DNA of 64,000 nt from Quercus robur (Eukaryota; Streptophyta; Magnoliopsida; Fagales; Fagaceae). This document shows, in pieces, positions 5,922-62,522 of this stretch. Below the pieces are notes generated by a model that saw nothing but the letters and a program-made list of their open reading frames with translations, was not told the origin of the DNA and made no database searches. The stretch lies in assembly GCF_932294415.1 (NCBI RefSeq), contig NC_065541.1, positions 48,896,290 through 48,960,289 of the forward strand, written 5' to 3'. The translations under genes were made by a program, and so were the position numbers. Positions within the stretch are counted from its first letter, which is position 1. Every line of letters begins with the position of its first letter.

Positions 5922-8100
5922 TCATGAAGGAGGGGCGTCAGCATTGGGGTCATCCTGAATTGGCTGGGTGGTGGCATCGTCCTCTATATTGATATCTTCT
6001 GAGCTCGTCTGGAGGAGGGAGCTTGTAGCAGCACCACCAAGGTTGAGTTTAATGGAGCTAAAGTCAACTTCGAGGAAGTTTTCCATAGCGTCCATCCTGA
6101 AATCTTCAAACCCGGCTGCATAGTTGGTGTCCATCAGATCAGTAAATTGCTTGGACGCCTTGAACTCTACAACCGCGTCTCCTTATGCTTTTTCGAGAAG
6201 GGCACTCAACTCGTCATTCCTCTTTTGGAGGTGATCAAGACGAGTATCCTTCTCTATAGCATCAGTCCTCAACTCCTCAACATGGTTTTGCAGCTCCTTG
6301 GCTTCATCCTTGGCCTTAGCCGCCACCTTAACTCACCTCTTGCACTCTTCCTTAACTTCCTGGATCCTCGTCTTGTTCATCTTCGTTGCTTGCCTGGACA
6401 TGGTGAGGAACTTGGACATTGCCTACACAAATGAGAATTTTGTTAGACAAAATACACATGCATATATTGCTGACAGGACGAGATAAAAAAGTTATACATA
6501 CCTTAAAAAGGTCATGAACACCAGAGTGCTCAAACTCCTTCAAAGACATATCATAGTAGGCCGCCATGTCCTAGTCGGTCATAACCTTCTCGAACCTCTC
6601 CCAAGCCAGGTCTTCATTTTCAAGGAGATTTTGAGAACTTGTCGAGAAGGTTAAGACGAGGCAAGCACATTGGCTGTGGATGGAGTATTCATGGACGGAG
6701 GATCTCTAAGCTCGAGATCAACGTCATGCATTTGGGCAGAGGGCTGCTGGGTAGGAAGAACAGGAATGCTGGGCTTGACCCTTTTCTCCTTACGTCAACT
6801 TAGAAGGTTTCCCAAGTCAATAGCTTTGGACAAATTTTTTCTTTTATCATCTACAGATGGATGAGGCTGGTATTGGACGTCCTGCCTAACTGCCTTACCC
6901 ATCACTTCTTTGCCTTTATTCTCTTTCATTATTGCCATCCCTGAAAAGAAAGACGTTAGTCACAAAAAAAAGGGGGGAGAAAAGAAAGAAAAGAGAAAAG
7001 AGAACTTACGTCTACGAACTGTAAGCTCGTGGGCAATGGCTTCACTGGACTGCTCAGGGCTTACCCCCAAATGGCAAGACGTTGAAGACTTACCAAAGAA
7101 TGGAAAGTCCTGTCAGTATATAAACGAGCCTTTTGGACTTGTTCAGGATAGAACCTACTCAAATGAGGTCGTCTAACACTTGAAAAAAAAAAAAAAAAAA
7201 AGAGCAGAGAATTGTTAGACGACTACAATCAAGAATAAATATAACAAATAATAAAATGACAACAATAAGCGTACCTTCAGGATGGATGTTCCCTAACTTT
7301 CCTGTATAGAGAGCAAATGGATTCCTGCCAACCTCAACAGGGTGTCCAGCCCAGAAACCAGAGACAAAGAAGAACTCCATCTTCCAGTTCCTATTTGAGG
7401 TGACTAGGGAATTTATTAGCCTATAATCTTTCCCTTTGGCTGTGAATTGATAGAAGCCAAGGGATTGGTTAATCTTGGAGGGTTTGTAGCAATAGAGGAA
7501 CTCGTCCATAGTAAGAGGACGATCCCCCTCAAACACCTCCCTCCATAAAACTTGCATAGAGACAACTAGACTCCATGCATTGGGATTGAATTGACATATA
7601 CATAAACCCAATCTAGTGAGTAACTCCCTAGCAAAGGCATTAAGAGGCAACTTCAAACCCCTCGAGAGATAAGCCTCATAAATGCCAACACCAAAACGGG
7701 GTTGGCAACACCACTCCCCACGCACAGGTAACTTAGGGTTTAAGTCTTTAGGAATTTGATACCAAGTCTTATGGGAGTTTAGCCTTTTCTCGTCTGTCTT
7801 AGAAGCGACCCCTAGAGCACAACTGTAAACTATCTCAACCTCGTCTTGAACAGTAGACGAGGGAGCACTTGTACTAGCCCTAGACCCGGACTCAGCCCTC
7901 GTCTGAAGTTCTTCCTGGAGAACCTCTAAGGGAACCCTAGGGACACTAAACGTGTATTCGTTTGTGGTGTTTCCCCCACTGTTACTATTGCTATCACTAC
8001 TACTATTATCACTAGAACCACTAAAATTGCTAGGGTCGTGATACTCATCTATGGCCTTATCAACGCTATTGCTAGACGAGGAAAGGACAACCTCAGACAT
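5922..8100 (-). pseudogene. antisense gene of the Tat element (gypsy-type transposon protein, PF04195-like)
   Basis: An ATG at 8100 opens a long minus-strand exon to about 7275. It has an acidic serine-rich N-terminus (about residues 1-110) and a globular part with RGLKLPLNAFARELLTRLGL, WREVFEGDRPLTMDEFLYCY and KMEFFFVSGFWAG. That pattern matches the putative gypsy-type transposon family seen antisense in Tat-like elements. A GT donor follows at about 7274 and a pyrimidine-rich acceptor at about 7183. Further plausible exons lie near 7182-7018, 6940-6487 and 6430-5922, the last one coiled-coil-like (VEELRTDAIEKDTRLDHLQK). Downstream exons contain in-frame stops (for example TGA and TAA in the last exon) and a frameshift just after the first intron. 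Its function in these elements is unknown. Confidence 0.7.
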
Positions 8101-8470
8101 TTTTTAAGAAAACTTAAAACTTGAGGACGAGAATAAAGAAAATACCTAGATCTAGACGAAGGGAGACTATAGATGTAAGAAACTTCTAAACGAGGCGCTA
8201 AGGCGAGGAATGTCAAAGAAGGAAATTTCAGAAATGTAAAAGGTAGCAAAGGAATTCCACGATTTATAGGCAACAGACTTTAGCATCTGAAACAACACAA
8301 CCAACCAAAAGGTGACACATGGCATGCTCCTCGAAAAAATGAATCAACGCGACCAGTCACCAATAGGATCATGACACATGGCACACCTAATCGCTAGCAT
8401 AAATACATACATCTAAAGAATGGCATCAGGCTATACATTTCCTTAGACGACCCATGGACAAGAGGGCAAT
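8101..8470. other. promoter-side spacer of the antisense gene and pre-LTR region
   Basis: No ORF is supported here. The stretch lies upstream of the antisense ATG. It ends with a purine-rich tract (GGACAAGAGGG, about 8456-8466) just before the TGATG that starts the candidate LTR, which fits a polypurine tract. Confidence 0.5.
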
Positions 8471-9066: not shown

Positions 9067-9120
9067 CTAACCATTTAAAAAAAAAAATTGTATACAAAAA
9101 AATAATTAAATTAAATTTTA

Positions 9121-9329
9121 GGGATAATTACAGCAAACCCACCTGAGATTTGGCCCATTTACACTTTACCTACCTGTGGTTTAAAACTTATCACTTTGCC
9201 CACCTGAGGTGCCTTCCGTTAGAGATCTGTTACCCACCTCTCCCTTTGCCGTTAGAAAAACACATTTTTAGAGAAAAACAAACATAACAAAGATAAAAAA
9301 GTTAGGGTTTTTTATTGCTTAAGAACTTC
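9121..9329 (+). repeat. left TIR of the Pack-MULE
   Basis: This 209-bp repeat is the inverted partner of 10568-10778. It ends at GCTTAAGAACTTC, where the right arm also stops matching. Confidence 0.92.
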
Positions 9330-9664
9330 GCCTTAAAACTGCATAACTCAAACTCTCTCTCTTTCTTATGAATCAAATCAAAGGAAGAAGAAAAGGAGAG
9401 AGAGATCTGTGAGTGTTGTAATCTCTAAACTCTAAATCTATCATTTGTTATGACAAAAGAGAGAGATAAAGAGAGTTCTTGGAGTCGGAGTCTTAGGAGA
9501 GTAATAAAAGAAAAGAAGTTGAACATCAAAGCCCACGTGATTTTACGATCAGAATGATCGATCACCATGAGCCTAGATGCCAAGGCGGCGAGTGATACCA
9601 TCATCCCAGTCACACTGCTCAAAAGCAACGGGTAAGAAAGAGCTTCACCCAGCCAACACGGTGC
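9330..9664. other. Pack-MULE interior upstream of the gene fragment
   Basis: This part holds a CT/GA-rich stretch and, from about 9550, a second GC-richer segment. A minus-strand frame here reads GMMVSLAALASRLMVIDHSD. It may be a separate captured exon, but I do not recognise the family. Confidence 0.4.
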
Positions 9665-10201
9665 ACCTCGCTGAACCCGCGTGGCAAAACGGTGTTCCTC
9701 GAGGAAGATCCGAAGTGGTTCCAGACGGTTCTCAAGGACTCGCCGTACCTGAAGGCCCACACGGTCAAGTACCGAACCCAGCTCTCCCAGGCCGACCATC
9801 TCCTCTCCTCGTACCGCTCCGAACGCCTTTGCTCGCCGTCCGATGCGTACCTACGTGGCAACACGCGGTGTCATTTGGCGCTCGAGAATCTTCCCGACAA
9901 GGTGTACGAGACGGAGTGGGATTTGATAATGATCGACGCGCCGAGAGGGTACTTCGCCGAAGCGCCAGGTAGGATGGGTGCGATTTTCTCGGCGGCGGTC
10001 ATGGCGAGGAACAAGAAGGGATCCGGTGTGACGCACGTGTTCCTGCACGATGTTGATCGGAGAGTAGAGAAGGCTTTTGCTGAAGAGTTTCTTTGTAGGA
10101 AGTATTTGGTTAAGGCTGTCGGGAGGCTCTGGCATTTTGAGATTCCGTCTGCAGCTAATAACGCTAGTGTTGCTGGGAGTAACTCAGTTACTTTTTGCTG
10201 A
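9665..10201 (+). pseudogene. captured IRX15/IRX15-LIKE-type (DUF579) gene fragment
   Basis: An open frame of about 179 codons reads SLNPRGKTVFLEEDPKW, then RTQLSQADHLLSSYRSE, RGNTRCHLAL, YETEWDLIMIDAPRGYF, GVTHVFLHDVDRRVEK and FAEEFLCRKYLVKAVGRLWH, and ends in VTFC-stop. These are hallmark segments of the DUF579 family. IRX15-type members act in the Golgi in glucuronoxylan synthesis for secondary walls, and related members are glucuronoxylan methyltransferases. The methyltransferase-like acidic box (MIDAPRG) is intact. The normal N-terminus (membrane anchor and first third of the domain) is missing, since homology begins at about 9665 with no obvious ATG in the family frame. The family C-terminus looks complete. 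The uninterrupted frame suggests recent capture or selection. Confidence 0.82.
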
Positions 10202-10567
10202 GTTTAATTTTTGGAAGACCTCTTTGGTCCACCCGATCTGGAAGTTGACGATGGTGCAGATGATGGGAGGTTGGGATTGAGAGCGGTTGGTGGTGATATA
10301 GGCTTGGAGTTCGAGGACAGATTGCTGGCGGGTCGGATTAGATCTAGGGCGCATAGGAGGACCCGAGATGAGTGGGTTTTGAGAGAAGGAAGAGGAAATA
10401 TGAGTGGTGGTGGTGCCGGAGATGGAGGGAATGACGAGGGTAGTGTGGAAATTACGGGAGGAAAGGTGGGTGCAAAGCTCCATGCAAGGGTGAAGGATTG
10501 AATACATGTTTGAATAACCAATGGACAAGAGAATAGCAATACTGTTGGTTTGTGTTTTGTTCTAAAA
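10202..10567. other. Pack-MULE interior downstream of the gene fragment
   Basis: Overlapping open frames exist on both strands (for example 10211-10501 on +). Their products are low-complexity, Gly/Asp-rich on + and Ser/Pro-rich on -. This could be a second captured fragment, such as a Ser/Pro-rich N-terminal exon read on -. I cannot assign it. Confidence 0.35.
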
Positions 10568-10778
10568 GAAGTTCTTAAGCAAAAAAAAAAACCATAACTT
10601 TTTGATCTTTGTTATGTTTGTTTTTCTCTAAAAATGTGTTTTTCTAACGACAAAGGGAGAGGTGGGTAACAGATCTCTAACGGAAGGCACCTTAGGTGGG
10701 CAAAGTGATAAGTTTTAAACCACGGGTAGGTAAAGTGTAAACGGGCCAAACCTCAGGTGGGTTTGCTGTAATTATCCC
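10568..10778 (-). repeat. right TIR of the Pack-MULE
   Basis: This is the reverse complement of 9121-9329 with a few mismatches. It ends GTAATTATCCC directly before the 9-bp duplication. Confidence 0.92.
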
Positions 10779-10951
10779 TAAATTTTAAATAAAAATAAAG
10801 TCTAAATTTTTTATATAAAAAGAAAACACCCAATGGAGCTTCAGCAAAAATATGAAATGATTTCACTCTCATTTATTTTTGCTTCATTTTCAATCACTGT
10901 GAATACGGAAGATCAAAAAGCAAAATCCGAACACCAATTAATTGAGTTAAT

Positions 10952-17530: not shown

Positions 17531-17610
17531 GAATTGAAGATGTTTTTCTAGAGAATTTTGAATAATTTTTTTTGTTTGGAGTGAAACTTGTGCTCCAAGT
17601 TGAACCAGCA

Positions 17611-23669
<6,059 letters not shown>

Positions 23670-37700: not shown

Positions 37701-40675
37701 TTAAATTGATAGATGTTTAATATTATATGAAAAATAAATGCTTAACCATATATAAAAATTTAAATAAAAATATATTTAATAATTAATTAATATACGTATC
37801 TCCACCGTACCTGTGTCCTACTTTTTCAAAAATTGTGTCACCGCACTCGTGTCTATATCCATGTGTTGATACCCATTTTCACAATACATTATGATTCAAT
37901 TGAGCCCGACCTTGTTGTGGGCCTAATTCATGTGCATATTATATTTTATTCTTTTAAACATGGCTCAAGCCCATGTTATAGATTGGGAAAATTAAGGAAG
38001 TATGAGTCGGTTTCTTTCGAACCTTTTGCATGAGCCTAGCATGCATGCTACCAAGTGGGCAAGGGACATTGGTAGCACCTCAAGCTCATAAAGAAGGTTA
38101 CGTACTCAAAATTTCCACCACAAAAGAGTTTTTATGCTTTGGCTAACTGTGGCCCAACTTTTTTGCTCTACACTTTTTTTGCCTAAAACACATAGCTAAA
38201 CTTAAGTGGCTAGCCTTGTTTGCTACAACAACAAAATGTAGACTCCAAGGACCTGCCATGTCTAGGAAACATCAGCCCATGAATTTAAGTCACTTCATTT
38301 CCCAAATTATGCAAAAAGAAAGCCAACCCTCTTACCCAATTAAAGCAAATCTGACCATAACCTCTTTGATTGAAACCTTGGGGTTCAAAGCCTCTTTTAT
38401 TGACCAAAGCAGTCACTTAGAGCACCTCAAATTCAATACAAAAGGCCCTAATCAGATTCAAAAGCAACCACATTTTATCCTTAAAAGCTGAAACTTTAGA
38501 GCAAAAGCCTATTCAACCAACTAACAATCTCACAATTCGGAAGCTACGGGGTGGAAATATGGATATAGGGGAATCTTTCCTCTTTTTCTCACAACCTTTC
38601 TCAATTTCCTCTTCTCGCTGATTATGGATCGAAGTTTTAAACCTCTATTGTTTTTATGCATTTTTCAGCATTTTTGTTATTGGCATTTTGATTTTTCTCT
38701 TGTTAAAGCAACATTCACCTTTATTTACTAAATATTGGAATTTTGGACTTGACACTCTCCGCAAATAATCACTTCTAAAGAACCCAAGGGAGATTTGGGC
38801 CGTTCTCACATTTTTGGCCCTTGTCACAAAAAGGTCCCCGACACCGTGCAAATGCTTCCTAAACTTAGGTCTAAAAATAAGCAGTAACAACAAAAATTAT
38901 TTAATTACACGTCCTTATGCCTTGACTTCTGAATATCCTGCTTCTCAAGAAAATCCAGGGACATTTGTTCTATCCATCACTTTGATAGGGAGATGAATGT
39001 GGCTCGGTAGGCAATTACCATTGTCTATGATCAAGTTCCAAACTTTTTGTTGGACTGAACACTGTGAATGGAAAATTCTATGATGCTGTGACAGATCTTC
39101 CTATTTGCTGGATTGACCACAGTGAATGGAAAATGCTATGATGCTGTGACAGCTCCTCCTGCTTGGAGTCAGGAGTGTACAGTCTACACCACACAGGAAT
39201 TCAGCCTCTTTGTCTGCAATTTCAGCATCTAGCAAATTATCATCACCATAACCCTCTTCTAATTCTCCGCCATATTCATCTGCATGATTTGCAAGATGTA
39301 CAGGCTTACATGCTGGACATGCATTCGAACTATGACCGGGCTCATCACACCGGTAGCAATGTTTTGCAGTAGGCCTGGTACAAGGGTTCTTAGCAGCATC
39401 CCTATTATTTACCCCACGAGTCTGCCTTGGTACAGTTCTACTGCTACCTTCAGTTCCTTGCCTCCTTACATCTTATGAGCAAACTGGATCTTAGACAAGT
39501 TGTTTCTTGTTTTCAAAATTATTATGAGGCAATTTAGAAGGAACCCGCTTGGAATTTTTTAGTTCAACTTGGTCGATGCCATTAACCTTTCTGCCTTTGA
39601 CACCAAATTATGAGCCTCATCTACTGTCCAAACAGGCTGCAAGTCCATCTTCTCTTGAATTGAGAACTTTAAGCTATTAATATATCAAAAATATATATCA
39701 CGCTATCTGTTGCCACCTCCGATAATTCACAGCATGCTGCCAGGCAAAGAATTTCCGTTTATTCAGCAACAGATCAAACACCTTGCATACAATTCTGATA
39801 TTGCTAAAACAGGTTTTGCTCATAAACAGGAGGCAAAAATCTACCCTTCAATAATTTTCTCGTCCTCCCCATGTCCTCACTAGCCCCTTTTCCTTGCCAC
39901 TAACGATTATTTTGTATATGATCCCACCAAATAGAAGCTCCACATTTCAATTGGTATGCTACAAGTTTGACCTGCTTCTCATCCAGTACATCCAGCATCT
40001 CAAAAAATTTCGACTTTGTAGATCAAATCAAGGACTCAATATCAAGAGTCCCACTGAAACTAGGAATATCGACCTTGAGAGAATAATCCTCAGCCTCCCT
40101 ATTACGTCGTGCCTCCCTTCGGTACCCTTTGTATCCTCCATTTTCATCTTTAGAATCATCTGCATAGGCTAGTGGCCTACAGTGATTGACATGACCCTAC
40201 TGACCACCAACTAGACCACAAGCATTGAACCTGGCACCATCGTCCTTGTTGCCTTCGCGGTTCCTATTGGCATTAAGTCTCATAGCAGCTAGCATATCAC
40301 GAATCTCTTAGATACTCTATTGTGGAGCCAGGAGTGCATCCCAAATTGCTTGTACCCCTTGCTATCCTTCAACACGGTTGTTACACTTGCGCTGGTTGTT
40401 TGCCATATCAGATCGCTGAGAAGCTCTGATACCACCTAACGCTAAATAGAAATGTAACAAGCTAGATCTCGTTCTAGCTTAAAGAAGTCTTAATGAATCA
40501 AGAAACTTAAGCCTAAAATCCACCAGTAATTTGAGAAATTCTCAGAGAAGTACTTTATTTCAGCCTACTGAAAACCAGTTTAATATAGTACATATTTATA
40601 GGAGCCCTTTAGGGTTTCAATTAGGCTTCCCTAAAAATTAAAATTACAAAAATACCCTTAAATTTCCTACGACAT

Positions 40676-60718: not shown

Positions 60719-61771
60719 GTAATGTTTTTACAATATTATGATTATTTGCTAGTTTTTTTTTTAAAAGAAAAATTTAGAACATATTAGGAAAAGTTTTGTT
60801 TTTCTGATTTGTTAGTATAAATATTGTGATTAATTTATTTGTTAGTATATTGTGATTATTTGCTAGTTTTTTTTTTTTTAAGAAAAATTTAGAACATATT
60901 AGGAAAAGTTTTTTTTTTTATTTGTTAGTGTAAATATTGTGATTAATTTATTTGTTAGTATGTTGTGATTATTTGCTAGTTTTTTTTTTTTTGAAATTAA
61001 TATTAGGAAACATTTATATAAGATCATGAATCTACCTAAGAAAAAATATCTATAATGACTAGTAATATTATGATTAATTATTGGGAATATTTAGTAAATA
61101 ATTGTGATTAAATTACAACATATTGGGAATTTTTTTTTGTTAGTGTAAATATTGTGATTAAATTATTTGCTAAGTTTTTAAAAAAAAAAAATTAATATTG
61201 TGATTATTGGGAATATTTAGTACCAAATATTGTGATTATTATGTTATTACAACATATGGGAATATTTGTTTTGTTTGTTAGTGTAAATATTGTGATAATA
61301 TGCTAAGTTTTAAAAAAAAATTAATATTGTGATTAATTATTGGGAATATTTAGTACTAAATATTGTGATCAATTGTTAGGAATATTTAGTACTTTTAGGT
61401 CTTTATCATGGATATGAAATGGATTATGAGTTTGATACCTAAGATAGTAGTCTTTTTACCATAAATTATTTCAAGATATATTTGTTTAAGATTTGTAACA
61501 GATATTTCAATGGATAACTGGTTGGTATATAATATTTTTGTTCATCATAACTTATTTGAATGGGTTTTGAAAGTCATGCCCCTAGAATGATTTGGAATTT
61601 TTAAAGAATATGAAATTGGTAATGACTATTTTTGTAAGATTACTAAAGGTGAGTATATGCAAATTTGGTTGAGGTTAGTATCGTTGGTATTTCATACGCA
61701 AAGTTTTGTGATTGATGTTGATTGAACGTTATAAATTTGTCACTAACACAATTGCACTTGATGATCTATAG
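60719..61771 (+). other. probable 5' intron of the MULE-type gene
   Basis: A donor CTCTCAG|GTAATG at 60718/60719 and an acceptor GATCTATAG at 61771 would place the ATG at 61779 eight bases into exon 2. The intron is AT-rich and contains tandem units of about 114 bp (ATTATTTGCTAG at 60741, 60855 and 60968). Confidence 0.45.
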
Positions 61772-61778
61772 GTTGACA

Positions 61779-62522
61779 ATGATCCATATAAATATATACT
61801 ACGGTGGACCCCTTAGCAATGCCAACCCTTATGACAGATTCTCATTTCAAGGTCCGGGTATCCAGTGCTGCTATATGATGATACGCCGTAAGCTAAAGAC
61901 CCAGAATGAGCTGAAAGTAAAAAATATGGAAGAGTTGCAAGTGAACCTTGCTTTGCATGACATACATATTACTTTTCGTTCTCCATATGAAGTCCTCAAT
62001 CAATGCATTAATTACAGATATATGGCGATAACAGATGACAAACATGTGAAATTCATATTTAGTAAGATGGAGAAATGGGAACAAGCAACAGATTTTGAGT
62101 TGTACGTCACTTTGGAGCCGCGTGCGGAAGTCGGCGTAGAGGAAGAAATTGTACAAACAACTACATCTCTACAGTTTGCAGTCCTAGATGATCGATGCAC
62201 CACATTGGGAGGCTATACACCCCCTTTTCAAGAGACACCAACAACAATTGAGAGCGAACCTGGAAATAGATATGAAGATCAATTTTGTACACATCGAGGT
62301 GAATCCTCTACAGTTCCAGTAGTTGACAATAATGACGAAGACTGTTTTGGGGAAGATCTTGACGATAGAGATGAGTACGAAAAGAGGATTGACAATGGTG
62401 ACTTTGACAGGGGTGTTGATGACCATGAAATTACTCCCATTCCTCATGTTGATGCTATGGCTAAATGTGATGAAGATGATGCAGATGCTAATGTTAGAGT
62501 TCAGCATGTTACAAATACGTAG
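61779..62522 (+). pseudogene. N-terminal part of a MULE-type transposon protein
   Basis: From ATG 61779 the product reads MIHINIYYGGPLSN, later NYRYMAITDDKHVKFIFSKM and DFELYVTLEPRAEVG, then an acidic tail rich in Asp/Glu ending at TAG 62522. The YYGG start, the YRYMAI...DD box and the ELYV strand resemble the N-terminal domain that precedes the transposase in plant Mutator-like proteins. The zinc-finger and transposase parts do not follow; an A/AAT-rich tract does. So this is either a truncated transposon gene or a small derived gene. Cellular role unknown. Confidence 0.6.

Follow-up and report, generated by a model that had tools for sequence, protein, structure and literature searches.

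Within the window (the whole stretch of Quercus robur DNA that we analyzed, 64 kb in length), the segment 9121-10778 is very probably a Pack-MULE, a Mutator-like transposon that is non-autonomous, with two pseudogene-like gene fragments as its cargo. Its terminal inverted repeats (TIRs), the target-site duplication (TSD) that brackets them, and the two gene fragments with their reading frames can be read directly from the DNA (Table 1). The first-pass annotation of this locus had proposed a Pack-MULE carrying an IRX15-type fragment, and the TIRs, the 9-bp TSD and a Pfam match bear this out; the second fragment, on the minus strand, was absent from that annotation and is newly added here.

Table 1. 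Features of the element and its immediate borders (positions in the window)
Feature	Positions	Strand	Basis
Element proper, 1,658 bp	9121-10778		TIR ends flanked by exact TSD copies
Left TSD, TAAATTTTA	9112-9120	.	Identical copy at 10779-10787
Right TSD, TAAATTTTA	10779-10787	.	Identical copy at 9112-9120
Left TIR, ~209 bases, 5′ start GGGATAATTACAGCAAACC	9121-9329	+	Comparison with right TIR
Right TIR, ~211 bases, terminating in ...GTAATTATCCC	10568-10778	-	Comparison with left TIR
Internal stretch	9330-9664	+	Four pieces scanned, Pfam-negative
Putatively captured IRX15/GXM-family (DUF579) fragment, C-terminal 178 codons and stop, open	9665-10201	+	PF21729, E 2.3e-68
Putatively captured fragment taken as plant UDP-glycosyltransferase N-terminal part, ~94 codons, open	10214-10495	-	PDB 9bcm_A and Smith-Waterman comparison

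Ends of the element and its class

A repeat search recovered an inverted pair of 211 nt (9106-9316 with 10583-10793, 95% complementary), the arms of which take in 15 flanking bases per side. Over the outermost 196 bases of each end of the element itself, the TIRs differ at 8 of 196 positions (5 transitions and 3 transversions; 95.9% alike), and beyond base 196, with a 2-base gap, their likeness remains clear to base 209 on the left and base 211 on the right, in agreement with the roughly 210 bp estimated at first pass. They are the longest and best matched of the 4 inverted pairs in the window (at least 60 bases, within 15 kb). Their 23-base terminus, sought with up to 3 mismatches, occurs twice in the 64 kb, once at each end of the element and both times exactly, and nowhere else in the window, against a mean of 0.00 in 100 shuffled windows. 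The exact terminus is also absent from viral_contigs and genome_contigs, which carries little weight since these are viral and prokaryotic collections. The flanking TSD copies agree at 9 of 9 bases, as the claim of a perfect 9-bp duplication had it. As just 40 of 992,000 pairs of 9-mers drawn from the two 1-kb flanks agree, the TSD included (a chance of about 4.0e-5), the duplication is not fortuitous. The interval originally assigned, 9112-10787, picked out the right element but included both TSD copies.

Together, the long TIRs, the 9-bp TSD and the presence of host gene fragments amount to the anatomy of a Pack-MULE, for which PMC3310237 specifies a TSD of 9-11 bp. Between the TIRs lie the PF21729 and UDP-glycosyltransferase (UGT) pieces described below, and Pfam scans of two partly overlapping sets of interior frames (4 and 6) returned no transposase match. 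The end of the element, GGGATAATTACA, agrees at 9 of 12 positions with the maize MuDR end GAGATAATTGCC, as given in PMC2563033, a level that 28 of the 63,989 plus-strand 12-mers of the window also reach; over the first 25 bases the agreement is 11 of 25.

The element is like the Pack-MULEs of rice, tomato, maize and Arabidopsis in its long TIRs, its captured fragments and the lack of a detected transposase, and its AT-rich TSD resembles those in rows of the tomato Pack-MULE table (PMC3310237). It is unlike them in its cargo, an IRX15-type plus a UGT piece, and in its TIR family, and its 1,658 bp exceed the commonest sizes of tomato Pack-MULEs (1000-1200 bp; PMC3310237). According to PMC8903248, multi-locus capture is frequent in maize; for rice that study gives a significant multi-locus share for Pack-Mariners only and cites rice Pack-MULEs as an earlier example. 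Pack-MULEs with several captured loci are already known, and the present one is an ordinary member. In literature searches pairing IRX15 with Mutator-like elements or Pack-MULEs, IRX15 was absent among the matches listed, and in those pairing DUF579 with transposons this cargo was unreported among the matches listed.

Two convergent gene fragments as probable cargo

The plus-strand fragment matches the Pfam profile PF21729 (IRX15_IRX15L_GXM) over positions 31-189 of 189, and positions 1-30 are missing, which upholds the earlier remark that the N-terminus had been lost. Its translation contains the MIDAPRG and HDVDRRVEK segments, likewise noted at first pass, which we take to be typical of the IRX15/IRX15L clade of the DUF579 family, the putative placement in this clade being by these motifs. 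The difference from that clade is that this is a fragment only, from which the first 30 profile positions and everything preceding them are absent. The enclosing frame is open from 9596 to a stop codon at 10199-10201 (201 codons); the portion within the Pfam match, which begins at 9665, accounts for the open DUF579 frame of about 179 codons that had been reported. The GC content by codon position in this frame (0.55, 0.44 and 0.68) fits a sequence that once coded for protein. For IRX15 itself no enzymatic activity is known, and its proteins reside in the Golgi (PMC6508755).

The fragment has neither the complete domain nor the start codon of a functional IRX15/DUF579 protein. The earliest ATG in its frame stands at 9929, codon 112 of 201; the ATG at 9577 begins a 131-codon frame in a different phase, and the other ATGs of the element upstream of the frame are either in a different phase or stopped before 9596, so that, barring a putative splice, the fragment would lack normal translation as a whole. 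A truncated or chimeric protein made from this frame and kept under selection is accordingly a most improbable product, even with 201 open codons, an intact C-terminus and stop, and a third-position GC of 0.68 in its favor: the frame starts inside the domain, and the N-terminal membrane anchor of the DUF579 family cannot lie within the captured piece. According to a 2026 review (PMC13317346), numerous captured fragments are expressed with signs of selection, although most are non-functional, and this too speaks for such a protein.

A search of solved structures with the IRX15 fragment, run to an E-value of 10, gave 25 distinct sequences (best 0.0026) of unrelated kinds, such as Fc receptors, a transporter and methane monooxygenases. 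A single-sequence structure prediction (mean pLDDT 34.0, pTM 0.32, 170 of 178 residues below 50) is of too low a quality to count either way. When viral_contigs was searched by pattern for relatives of the IRX15 locus, 1 stretch fitted and tblastn did not confirm it.

The minus-strand frame 10208-10507 can be aligned to 9bcm_A, annotated as 'Glycosyltransferase' and, judging from its motifs, presumably a plant UGT (E 1.5e-5 for the whole sequence; i-Evalue 0.0087 for the single stretch). Because this E-value is modest, the match was put to a shuffle test: the Smith-Waterman score of the fragment against 9bcm is 118, whereas 20,000 shuffled versions of it never exceeded 63 and the other five frames scored 19-33. 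MELC, TL.IPS and W.KE.F also follow one another identically in the fragment and in the N-terminal segment of 9bcm. From these sequence similarities we take the piece to be the N-terminal part of a plant UGT; a Pfam scan of the frame gave no match, which weakens any definite assignment to a family. Compared with 9bcm, only about 94 codons are present, without the C-terminal donor-binding part. A caspase-3 identity was also considered for a 125-aa minus-strand frame (best E 0.009); on trimming to 100 aa its E-value weakened to 0.21 while that of 9bcm stayed at 1.5e-5, and it was therefore set aside as chance.

The two fragments are convergent, with detectable UGT similarity lying 12 bases from the IRX15 stop codon, and we infer capture from the presence of two such unrelated pieces within the TIR/TSD frame. 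This arrangement bears on the alternative that the locus is a degraded full-length IRX15 gene with fortuitous TIRs and duplication. The strong Pfam match and a natural-looking stop codon are what such a gene would leave, but an exact TSD directly at the ends of long TIRs and a piece of an unrelated gene on the opposite strand, so close to that stop codon, make it exceedingly improbable.

Pfam scans of four pieces of the left interior, sought as a third capture, gave 0 matches. This stretch holds a short ATG-initiated frame (9567-9635, 22 codons) that closes in GGGTAAGA, which looks like a splice donor at the close of an exon; frame and motif may represent a third captured piece.

Age, openness of the frames and possible transcription

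The first-pass annotation had called the element young, with few differences between its TIRs. The differences are indeed just 8 in 196, but this amounts to 4.1%, a moderate figure (p = 0.041, standard error 0.014; K2P 0.042 over the first 196 bases). Under assumed substitution rates of 1.3e-8, 7e-9 and 2e-9 per site per year, the K2P distance converts to 1.6, 3.0 and 10.5 My, respectively. The TIRs of MULEs need not be identical at insertion, and their divergence is no clean clock. In PMC3310237, four rows of a table on one tomato Pack-MULE family give outer-TIR identities of 87 to 94%, which places the 95.9% found here on the similar side and favors a young element without being extreme. Youth therefore gains weak support from TIR identity, and the span from 1.6 to 10.5 My leaves it no sharper than that.

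Neutral simulations (4,000 runs) assumed 0.12 indels for every substitution, a frameshift in 80% of these indels, and half the TIR divergence (2.1% per lineage) as the fragment's share. The IRX15 frame (534 nt) stayed stop-free in 72% of runs and free of both stops and frameshifts in 24%; the corresponding values for the UGT frame were 82% and 44%. With openness by chance at about 24%, the open IRX15 frame is poor evidence for constraint, and this level of chance (0.24) also argues against the translated protein considered above. The earlier suggestion that the frame is open and the copy hence recent or expressed finds no support, given this figure, the first in-frame ATG only at codon 112 and the out-of-phase ATG at 9577.

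Transcription of the element, with the captured fragments yielding small RNAs that act against their IRX15 and glycosyltransferase parents, would be an addition to the Pack-MULE interpretation and is unlikely. RNA folding of the entire element, from either strand, brings 203 of 210 positions of the TIR arms into pairing, so that any read-through transcript would be expected to adopt a long hairpin, and the two captures are convergent. Captures by TEs in maize, Pack-MULEs included, are described as reservoirs of siRNAs for the TEs and the donor genes (PMC13317346). Against this, the hairpin consists of the TIRs and any long-TIR element would fold likewise, and a scan of the plus strand of the element found neither TATAAA nor TATATA. 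The more specific proposal that this convergent xylan-gene and glycosyltransferase-gene Pack-MULE gives a hairpin transcript whose small RNAs tune both parents together is very unlikely.

Proposed origin, genomic setting and significance

As we reconstruct it, an ancestor element of the same TIR family would have copied pieces of two unrelated host genes: from an IRX15-type DUF579 gene its 3′ part, and from a UDP-glycosyltransferase gene, in the opposite orientation, an N-terminal part. A MULE transposase may then have mobilized the element in trans, and insertion at the present site would have duplicated 9 bases of an AT-rich target. In this scheme we infer that the pieces were copied from parental genes, in what order capture and insertion took place, and that transposition occurred in trans. 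As for function, both captured pieces are most likely pseudogenes that the element carries and that serve no purpose as protein; a point against this is that both captured frames are open, as constraint would also give.

The surrounding window contains several other frames. Upstream of the element, a plus-strand reverse-transcriptase RNase H fragment (2164-2544; PF17919, E 1.3e-15) is probably the remnant of an LTR retrotransposon, and a 314-codon minus-strand open frame (7162-8103) matches PF04195 (Transposase_28, 'putative gypsy type transposon') below the cutoff, at E 0.00013 and 22.6 versus 26.2 bits. Downstream, the nearest clearly host-type frame among those scanned is a plus-strand P-type cation ATPase open frame of 512 codons (17566-19101; PF00122, E 1.6e-48; PF00690, E 1.1e-21), with more exons apparent by eye to about 23669. 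Further on are a retroelement-like minus-strand open frame (39104-39472) with a CCHC zinc knuckle just below the cutoff (PF00098; 20.5 versus 20.8 bits), and a plus-strand open frame of 266 codons (61722-62519) that by eye looks like the N-terminal region of MuDR-type transposases from plants but had no Pfam match up to E 0.1.

For annotation, the locus carries the risk that a gene finder may label 9596-10201 as an IRX15-like gene. As a Pack-MULE, the element is a clean further example of the capture of gene fragments by MULEs, with pieces of two unrelated genes in one element, and it would take on greater importance only if RNA data revealed small RNAs directed against the parental genes.
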